Part shown: positions 1,436 through 4,949 of the stretch, piece by piece | Layout: the number at the start of each line of letters is the position of its first letter | Position numbering within the stretch: position 1 is the first letter of the stretch | Assembly: GCA_016342755.1 (NCBI GenBank) | Contig: JAEINS010000014.1 | Coordinates: 1-64,000, forward strand | Direction of reading: 5' to 3' | Source: Melioribacteraceae bacterium | Lineage (GTDB): Bacteria > Bacteroidota > Ignavibacteria > Ignavibacteriales > Melioribacteraceae | DNA: 64,000 nucleotides | The notes under the pieces: model-generated | The model's database searches: none | What the model saw: only the letters and a program-made list of their open reading frames with translations | Told to the model about the DNA's origin: nothing | Position numbers and translations under genes: made by a program

Positions 1436-1602
1436 ATAATTATTAATTACAAATATAATTATTTTGATTAGGACTTGCTATCTGAATTACAGTTCACTGA
1501 TAATTAGGCAGCCCAAGACAAAATGCGTATATAAAAGAATTGACTTTCATATAAAAATAGCTTTATCATTACGTGTACATTTGTTCACTATACGTAATAA
1601 TA

Positions 1603-3252
1603 ATGCTTGATCTACGAAAATATAATATCACAAAAAAAGATGATAAATCTGTAAGTATAACTAGGATTTTCTCCAAACTTCAGCGTAAACAGCGATTTGA
1701 TATCTACGATTACAATATGTTATTTCAAGATGAAAAAACAAAAAAGATAATTCGTAACGGTTCCACACTTGGCTGCTTCTACATCGAATCCCCGGGAATG
1801 CGTTCCTTATTAAAAAAACTTAATTGTGATACTTTTGAAATGCTTGTTGCCGCCAGTTCTATAATTAGACCAGGGGTAGCAGAAAGCGGCATGATGCAAG
1901 AGTTTATTGCTCGGCACAAAGATCCCCAAAAGCGAAAATATCTGGTTCCCGAGATGGAAAAATATTTGGGTGAATCTTATGGTGTAATGATTTATCAGGA
2001 AGATGTTATAAAAGTTGCTCATCATATTGCAGGTCTTTCTTTAGAGGAAGCCGATTTATTAAGAAGAGCAATGAGCGGAAAAATGCGCTCTAGTAAAACA
2101 ATGGAATTACTGCATGATAATTTCTTTTTAACAGCAAAAGGAAAGAAATTACCGGATGATATAATTAAAGAATTATGGCGGCAGATAAGCAGTTTTGCGG
2201 GATATGCGTTTTGCAAAGCTCATAGTGCCTCTTTTGCATTACTCTCGTTCCAAGTAGCGTACTTAAAGGCTCATTACCCTGCTGAGTTTTTGGCAAGTGT
2301 ACTAAGTAACCGTGGCGGATATTATTCAGCAGCGGTGTATATTCATGAATGTAAACGATTAGGGCTCAACGTTTTTCTTCCATGTGTTAACAAAAGTAAA
2401 ATTAAATATTATGGCAAAGACAAATATCTCTCGATAGGATTAATGGCTGTAAAAAGGCTGTCGCGCAAAACAATGTTAAATATAACAGGAGAACGAGCTA
2501 AGAATGGTAAATATACTTCTTTAGGGGATTTTGTTGATAGGGTTGATATAGCTCCAAAGGAAACTGAATTATTAATTAAATGCGGAGCTTTTGATTTTCT
2601 AGAGCAGAGCAGACCGGCATTAATGTGGTTATCATACTTTTGTTTCAAGTCTAAAAACACAATACAATATTCTCTCTTTGATAATGAGGAATATTTACTA
2701 TCACAAGGTTTTATGAATATCCCACAATACCAAGTTGCACAAATATGTGCAGTAGAATATGAAACATTCGGATTTCTTGTTTCTCACCACCCTCTTGATT
2801 TCTTTGCAAAGTTTATAAATCATAAAAAAATTGTAAAGGCAAAGGATATGTCTAATTATAATGGGAAAGTTATAAAAATGATTGGATGGTTTATGACCTC
2901 GAAACGTATAAAAACAAGAAAGGGTAAAATAATGAAATTCCTTTCGCTTGAAGATCTTAGCGGTACATTTGAAGCCGTTCTTTTCCCGAATGTTTATTCG
3001 TTATATGCTGAAGAAACTTTATCTGCCGGAGCCTTTGGTATTGTTGGCAGAGTTGATACGGATAATGGAAATAATATTGTCGTAGAAAGAATAAAAGCGT
3101 TATCCACCAAAGAATTGCAAACCGAACAAACAAAGGATAGTGCCGAAAATATATACTACGGAGAAGTTGACGCAGTTCATGATGAAGAATTTGAACTATC
3201 AAAATCACTTAACAAGAAAATCATTAACTCATTGTACGGAAAAGGTGCATAG
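1603..3252 (+). CDS. DNA polymerase III alpha-type protein, C-terminal half (fingers to OB fold)
   Basis: About 549 residues that align by eye with the fingers and C-terminal part of bacterial DnaE/ImuC (DnaE2) polymerases. GCFYIESPGMR is at residues 57-67, RPGVAESGMM at 89-98, YGVMIYQEDV near 127-135, FAGYAFCKAHS at 198-208 and LKAHYPAEF just after. A helix-hairpin-helix region and an OB fold (IGWFMTSKRIKTRKGK onward) follow. The PHP and palm domains with the catalytic aspartates are missing here; they are encoded by the next gene at 3309. About 35 basic N-terminal residues have no evident DnaE counterpart. The ATG at 1603 is preferred to an in-frame GTG at 1573, but no strong ribosome site decides it. 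It is probably an accessory polymerase subunit rather than the main replicase. Confidence 0.85.
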   Translation: MLDLRKYNITKKDDKSVSITRIFSKLQRKQRFDIYDYNMLFQDEKTKKIIRNGSTLGCFYIESPGMRSLLKKLNCDTFEMLVAASSIIRPGVAESGMMQEFIARHKDPQKRKYLVPEMEKYLGESYGVMIYQEDVIKVAHHIAGLSLEEADLLRRAMSGKMRSSKTMELLHDNFFLTAKGKKLPDDIIKELWRQISSFAGYAFCKAHSASFALLSFQVAYLKAHYPAEFLASVLSNRGGYYSAAVYIHECKRLGLNVFLPCVNKSKIKYYGKDKYLSIGLMAVKRLSRKTMLNITGERAKNGKYTSLGDFVDRVDIAPKETELLIKCGAFDFLEQSRPALMWLSYFCFKSKNTIQYSLFDNEEYLLSQGFMNIPQYQVAQICAVEYETFGFLVSHHPLDFFAKFINHKKIVKAKDMSNYNGKVIKMIGWFMTSKRIKTRKGKIMKFLSLEDLSGTFEAVLFPNVYSLYAEETLSAGAFGIVGRVDTDNGNNIVVERIKALSTKELQTEQTKDSAENIYYGEVDAVHDEEFELSKSLNKKIINSLYGKGA

Positions 3253-3308
3253 AATAAGATAATACTACATTGATACTACGAGCACTAATAATAAGAAGAT
3301 ATTAATAA

Positions 3309-4949
3309 ATGATAAGTTTACATGTACATAGCAATTACTCGCTACTACAAGGCACAATACGCGTAGAAGACCTTGTAGATTACGCAGAAAAAGAAGGCAG
3401 CAGCTTTGTTGCTCTTACTGATACAAATGTTATGTACGGTTTAATAAAGCTGGCAAAGTTGGCTGTAGCTAAAAAGATTAAACCAATTTTAGGAGTCTTG
3501 ATTGATGATCCTAACAATATTGACGAGCATTGTATTTTTCTTGCAAAAAACAATAAAGGCTACTCTCAGATCTGCCGATTTATTACTGATAGAAATATTA
3601 GGGAAGACTTTTCTATTTCGGAGCTATTCTTAGAAGATTTAGAAAACATGTTCCTCATAACTTCTTCATTAGAACTATTAAAGAAAATAGAATATACACC
3701 AATAGTTAAAAAAAATCTTTTTGTTGAATTGTTTGTAACAAAAAAGTGGAAACCTAAAGTTCGGCAGTTATACGAATTTGCACGAGAACAGAATCTGGAA
3801 ATAGTAGCCACACATCCGGCATATTTTTATAAAGCTGAAGATTACGAACTTCATAAGGTTGTTTCGGCTATAAAGAAAAATACAACTCTTGCTAAACTTG
3901 AAGACACAGATATTGTTGATCCGGAGTTTTATCTACGGACTCCCGAAGAGTTCGGTAAACTATGGAAAAGTCTTCCCGAAGTAATATCTAATGCAGAAAG
4001 AATTGTTAAAGAATGTAATGTTGATTTAGAACTGGGAAAATATAAGTTCCCGCACTTCCCTCTTCCTAATACAGAAAGTGATGCTTTTAATTATCTTTCA
4101 AGAATTTGCGGCACAGAGTTAAGAAAAAAATATACTGTATTAACTACTCAGATAAGGGAACGCTTGGAATATGAATTAAGGGTAATTGATCAGCAAGGGT
4201 TCACTGATTATTTTTTAGTCGTCTGGGAAATAATAAAAGAGGCACACAAACGAAATGCTCTAACAGTTGGAAGAGGTTCAGCCGCAAATAGTTTAGTTGC
4301 ATACTGCCTCAATTTTCATCAAGTTGATCCCATTGCTCATAATCTATATTTCGAGCGGTTTCTAAACATGGCGCGAACTTCTCCGCCTGATATTGATATA
4401 GATTTTTCTTGGGCTGAACGAGATGACATAGTTAAATATGTATTTCAAAGATTTGGATATGACCGTGTGGCAATGATTTCAACGATGATAACTTTTCGGG
4501 CTAGATCAGCATTTAGAGAAGTTGCTAAAATTTTTGGTCTTTCTGAAACCAAGATTTCTCAATATCGTAAACATATACCATGGACTAGTGCAAAAAATCT
4601 TCCAACCATATATGAACATTTTCCAGAATCAAAATCACTTAAATATGATTTTACTACAGAGCCATTAAAATCGATTGTTGAAATTGCTTCACGCCTCAGT
4701 GAATTTCCACGGCATATTTCAATACATCCCGGAGGAATTGTAATTGCACCATCTTTAATTACAAATTTTACGGCTTTGGAATACGCTGCAAATAAAGGGA
4801 TTGGAATAATTGTTACTCAGCCCGATATGTATTCAATTGAAGATATAGGGTTAGTTAAAATTGATTTGCTCTCTCAGCGATCTCTAGGTGTGTTAAGGGA
4901 TTCTATTGATATGATAACGCAGAATGTTTCTGAAACAGAGAGTATTTAA
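3309..4949 (+). CDS. DNA polymerase III alpha-type protein, N-terminal half (PHP and palm)
   Basis: 546 residues that match the N-terminal half of DnaE-type polymerases. The PHP domain begins with HVHS (5-8) and has ALTDTN near 35-40. The palm has GRGSAA at 321-326, the catalytic motif PDIDIDF at 360-366 (Asp361, 363, 365), and the third catalytic Asp519 in VKIDLL. The protein stops 27 residues after Asp519, at the linker that normally leads into the fingers. The fingers, helix-hairpin-helix and OB domains are encoded upstream at 1603-3252, separated by 56 bases. The two halves appear to complement each other with little or nothing lost. A weak AAGAAG ribosome site precedes the ATG. No intein motif is visible at its C-terminus. 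Confidence 0.87.
   Translation: MISLHVHSNYSLLQGTIRVEDLVDYAEKEGSSFVALTDTNVMYGLIKLAKLAVAKKIKPILGVLIDDPNNIDEHCIFLAKNNKGYSQICRFITDRNIREDFSISELFLEDLENMFLITSSLELLKKIEYTPIVKKNLFVELFVTKKWKPKVRQLYEFAREQNLEIVATHPAYFYKAEDYELHKVVSAIKKNTTLAKLEDTDIVDPEFYLRTPEEFGKLWKSLPEVISNAERIVKECNVDLELGKYKFPHFPLPNTESDAFNYLSRICGTELRKKYTVLTTQIRERLEYELRVIDQQGFTDYFLVVWEIIKEAHKRNALTVGRGSAANSLVAYCLNFHQVDPIAHNLYFERFLNMARTSPPDIDIDFSWAERDDIVKYVFQRFGYDRVAMISTMITFRARSAFREVAKIFGLSETKISQYRKHIPWTSAKNLPTIYEHFPESKSLKYDFTTEPLKSIVEIASRLSEFPRHISIHPGGIVIAPSLITNFTALEYAANKGIGIIVTQPDMYSIEDIGLVKIDLLSQRSLGVLRDSIDMITQNVSETESI

Follow-up and report, generated by a model that had tools for sequence, protein, structure and literature searches.

A DnaE2-type polymerase of Ignavibacteria split into two genes: a probable two-subunit enzyme under predicted SOS control

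The window considered here comprises 64,000 nucleotides, the start of contig JAEINS010000014.1 (C14) in the 100%-complete genome of a Melioribacteraceae bacterium (GCA_016342755.1; 4.73 Mb, 56 contigs). At positions 1603–4949 it contains two genes that share out between them the domains of one DnaE-type DNA polymerase; their products are called the C-half and the N-half. Judged from sequence comparisons, they are probably the two subunits of a single SOS-inducible, error-prone (DnaE2-type) translesion polymerase.

Both open reading frames are intact, and their frames differ; the C-half also has an in-frame GTG at 1573. Their order, the C-terminal half first and the N-terminal half 56 bases behind it, is as the preliminary description of this DNA had reported. 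In Pfam the C-half matches DNA_pol3_finger (E 5e-40) and HHH_6 (E 1e-18), and its OB match is weak (24.1 bits, under the cut-off of 27 bits); the N-half matches PHP (E 4e-22) and DNA_pol3_alpha (E 1e-78). Aligned to solved structures, the N-half reaches residue 574 of E. coli alpha and the C-half begins at 591. The break therefore lies between palm and fingers, as had been proposed, and the catalytic aspartates of the palm, Asp519 among them, are in place as the triad D361, D363 and D519. An intact dnaE of 1161 aa is encoded elsewhere in the genome (contig C24), which settles whether a separate full-length gene exists.

The split is widely conserved. Presence lists, drawn up by hand from search tables, covered 58 genomes of the family and the order, the genome of the window included. 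Both halves are separate genes in 39 of them, one half alone occurs in 8 and neither in 11. The co-presence of the halves is significant (Fisher P 6e-6, a statistic that ignores shared ancestry). The relatives' halves are about 50–62% identical to those of the window, and the split is also seen in f13, another family of the class. Scanning named genomes yielded 80 C-half loci (median 562 aa) in Melioribacteraceae, Ignavibacteriaceae and other Ignavibacteria bins; all 80 are unfused to an N-half, so that fused relatives within the split clade were sought there in vain. Beyond the split families, the closest relatives are unsplit and about 1000 aa long or longer. Collections of phages and plasmids contain distant matches only (<60% identity).

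Both halves are under purifying selection, the dN/dS of each being about 0.03–0.1 in close pairs. The palm residues D361, D363 and D519 show no variation among 40 N-halves, nor do the fingers residues R154 and R155 among 39 C-halves. A candidate clamp motif of the C-half, QYSLF, keeps its L358 in 38 and its F359 in all of 39 C-halves, whereas the Q is not conserved. The preliminary description had taken the pair for a genuine split DnaE with both halves maintained, and the counts and substitution rates bear this out. It had also envisaged that relatives might carry only decayed fragments under relaxed selection; what they carry are conserved genes. Decay or assembly error could be argued from two cases, a C-half of G036 that has an internal deletion and an unsplit relative in G131 that has an in-frame stop, yet the same two genes recur in dozens of separate assemblies, several of them single-contig, and dN/dS is low. 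With the 80 unfused loci, this refutes decay or error for the clade, and for the window such an origin is extremely unlikely.

What kind of DnaE has been split? A concatenated tree unites the split proteins in a single clade (support 0.99), which falls on the DnaE2 (ImuC-type) side. Its neighbours are unsplit DnaE2s of the same class (1030–1065 aa) and of other Bacteroidota; further out follow the error-prone polymerases of Agrobacterium and Cupriavidus, and the DnaE1s of E. coli and Ignavibacteria, also included as references, stand on the opposite side. The domains point the same way. The PHP domain, which had been judged complete, is indeed full in length but degenerate in its metal site: N replaces the usual Asp of HxHSD in 28/40 N-halves and T the His of TDH in 31/40. 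The C-terminal tau-binding domain is absent, the C-half ending about 50 residues past the OB fold in a stretch that is mostly of low confidence in the model. Degenerate PHP metal residues and the lack of this domain are traits of DnaE2 (PMC3919608, PMC12926913). By these sequence criteria the polymerase is of the DnaE2 type, which the preliminary description overlooked.

An unsplit-type DnaE2 of another genome (locus L120, G131:C70, 1146–4265) has an in-frame TAG exactly at the palm-fingers junction; in G167, a genus mate of G131, the frame is open there. The TAG is due either to a sequencing error or to a second, recent break at this very junction.

The second line of evidence concerns regulation and went unnoticed in the preliminary description. 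Nearly all of the Ignavibacteriales loci checked carry a palindrome, TAGTGnACAAATGTnCACTA, at the C-half start or shortly upstream of it; a LexA box stands upstream of 36 C-half loci in one set and in 64/78 named loci. In the genome of the window, TAGTGNNCAAATGNNCACTA is matched with ≤2 mismatches at two places only: just upstream of lexA, and at 1571–1590, downstream of a sigma-70-like promoter and ahead of the C-half start. The C-half is thus predicted to be under LexA/SOS control. The coordinates are compiled in Table 1.

Table 1. Features of the split polymerase locus (positions in the window)
Feature	Position	Strand	Remarks
Sigma-70-like promoter	1540..1569	+	TTGACT (1540-1545), 18-base spacer, TATCAT (1564-1569); consensus match only
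Predicted LexA operator	1571..1590	.	TAGTGAACAAATGTACACGT on - strand; directly past -10 box; 1 of 2 genome sites with <=2 mismatches; conserved before C-halves of relatives
C-half gene (fingers, HhH, OB of DnaE2-type polymerase)	1603..3252	+	549 aa, ATG start
C-half R154-R155	2062..2067	+	ADLLRRAM; = Taq Pol III alpha R766/R767 by alignment
Candidate sliding-clamp motif of C-half	2665..2679	+	QYSLF
Intergenic gap	3253..3308	.	56 bases; without LexA-box match at score cut-off used
N-half gene (PHP, palm of DnaE2-type polymerase)	3309..4949	+	546 aa, ATG start
Catalytic D361 and D363 of N-half	4389..4397	+	= E. coli D401 and D403 by alignment
Catalytic D519 of N-half	4863..4865	+	= E. coli D555

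Assembly, polymerase activity and induction, as we infer them, would run as follows. Here both genes would form one operon behind the LexA-repressed promoter, and DNA damage would switch on the synthesis of their products. The N-half would contribute the palm, with its catalytic triad, and a PHP domain that is inactive, the C-half the fingers and the helix-hairpin-helix and OB parts that bind DNA. The two would associate non-covalently over the normal palm-fingers interface, so that the active site would be completed in trans. Taq R766/R767, the counterparts of R154/R155, presumably touch the incoming nucleotide, in which case the two chains would share the nucleotide site. The contact with the clamp is probably made by the C-half, the clamp motif of E. 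coli alpha being located near the position of the conserved LF. The predicted fold of the N-half resembles E. coli alpha (TM 0.87), that of the C-half M. tuberculosis DnaE1 (TM 0.63). In the C-half model the fingers part is lower in confidence than the remainder; this would fit a missing partner, but it is weak evidence.

Could the two products be joined into one chain? Trans-splicing by a split intein or a split intron would do so, and a split-intein DnaE is known from cyanobacteria (cited in PMC3919608). The N-half, however, stops about 6–8 residues past the DnaE homology, which leaves no room for an N-intein. The domain searches of the halves matched no intein family, and neither the window stretch nor the family f13 loci gave an Rfam intron match. 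Group II or other introns and inteins between the halves are thereby discarded, and the earlier statement that there is no intein stands. Splicing is hardly credible.

In relatives the halves occur in five arrangements: tandem C-N, tandem N-C, divergent, convergent, and hundreds of kb apart, the last on single-contig genomes too (G035, G046, G048, G049). In the C-half tree, C-N tandems turn up on at least four separate branches, several with gaps of 1–3 bases, as expected of partner subunits; this points to a repeated reunion of the two genes. The preliminary description had explained the reversed order by tandem duplication with loss of opposite halves, or by circular permutation. Because arrangements vary and C-N tandems recur, the order is unlikely to be a trace of either; it is one among several later arrangements. 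Thus the split is conserved and the order is not. The most economical history has a single ancient break: it would probably have occurred in an ancestor common to these Ignavibacteria, in whose descendants the genes dispersed and were linked again several times. In family f13 an insertion sequence or intron was considered as the origin of the gap and rejected, the intervening genes being an ABC transporter and others.

Several observations weigh against a two-subunit DnaE2 enzyme with a single origin. Among the genomes with one half only are G022, G032, G054 and G055, which are 98–99% complete. A single split clade is unsupported by the N-half alone (0.02) and reaches 0.81 with the C-half alone; one origin of the split is therefore likely, not proven. 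Distances in the N-tree and the C-tree correlate moderately (r 0.50, without outgroup comparison). Finally, a Y-family polymerase (PF00817) was not found in the complete genome of the window, so that the usual ImuB partner is missing.

Some of these points would also suit halves with independent functions: the N-half would then be a PHP/palm protein in its own right, and the C-half a regulator that binds DNA and clamp. Such separate roles would agree with the unlinked halves of many genomes, the few genomes with a single half and the moderately correlated trees. They leave aside that active-site residues are invariant on both chains, that the halves are usually both present or both absent, and that they have repeatedly been re-linked into tandems. 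We consider separate roles improbable. Still less likely is a modulation of the intact DnaE1, e.g., by a C-half that competes for the clamp during SOS. Both this genome and most of the relatives searched have an intact DnaE1, and LexA control indeed falls on the C-half; the invariant palm triad of the N-half and the descent from complete DnaE2 enzymes would, however, go unexplained. Two subunits of one DnaE2-type polymerase remain the reading that we prefer.

Where the genes are unlinked, their control differs. Of 23 unlinked N-halves none reaches the LexA-box cut-off of 14 within 6 kb upstream (best score 11.1). In family f3 the N-half is often found behind purD, a name that is our own reading of the sequence. 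In several genomes it belongs to a lexA-DUF72-dinB-N operon; the lexA there is a second paralogue and has a palindrome of its own, TACCATACAAATGTATGGTA. Since unlinked N-halves thus lack the box of the first LexA that controls the C-half, the split might be a regulatory device: subunit assembly would gate polymerase activity, and the mutagenic enzyme would form only once the missing half is provided in response to damage, or once both repressors are released. We offer this as a tentative idea, less likely true than false.

Two LexAs occur in most genomes checked, and the cluster led by the second one was seen at L038, L048, L067, L073, L083, L089 and L092. The C-half of G044 is without the usual box and has the palindrome of the second LexA upstream instead (L046, 4187–4206). 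A DUF72 (YecE-like) gene recurrently adjoins dinB and the halves (L035, L037–L039, L041, L044 and others), which suggests a role of this gene in the damage response.

The known system that comes closest is DnaE2/ImuC of the ImuA-ImuB-DnaE2 cassette. Common to both are the phylogenetic side, the domain content, the degenerate PHP site, the lack of the tau-binding domain and LexA control, here a predicted one. In contrast to DnaE2/ImuC, palm and fingers reside on two polypeptides from two genes. Unlike in the mutasome, neither imuA nor imuB adjoins, and the genome has no Y-family gene (imuA was not searched for genome-wide). Relatives often keep dinB directly upstream of the N-half, as dinB precedes dnaE in Emticicia; the genome of the window does not. 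The split enzyme may be the sole SOS translesion polymerase that this genome encodes.

Cyanobacteria, too, make a DnaE from two genes. Theirs is the replicative polymerase, broken at a different place, as the preliminary description pointed out, and rejoined by a split intein; here an accessory polymerase is broken between palm and fingers, without an intein. Split polymerases that do without splicing are the family-B enzyme of Methanothermobacter and gene 43 of some T4-like phages. In these, too, the cut lies between domains and the enzyme is put together from two chains, but they belong to other polymerase families. In Desulfonema ishimotonii dnaE is reported to be split into two adjacent coding sequences in different frames (PMC6390638). 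That case is one genome with an intein-bearing DnaE and no conserved clade, in contrast to the clade described here.

Among open-licence papers, we found no description of a split dnaE in connection with Ignavibacteria, DnaE2 or ImuB. To our knowledge, DnaE-type polymerases are treated as single chains. In the parts of two bacterial polymerase surveys retrieved by key word (PMC3919608, PMC12926913), this split case is not mentioned; the former lists one Ignavibacteria genome as DnaE1 plus DnaE2, with no comment on a split in the passages so retrieved. Automatic annotation may score the two halves as fragments. This probable two-chain C-family polymerase has been retained in three families of a single order and in one more family of the same class. 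A naturally two-chain polymerase would offer a clean system for the cooperation of palm and fingers and for mutagenesis switched by assembly.
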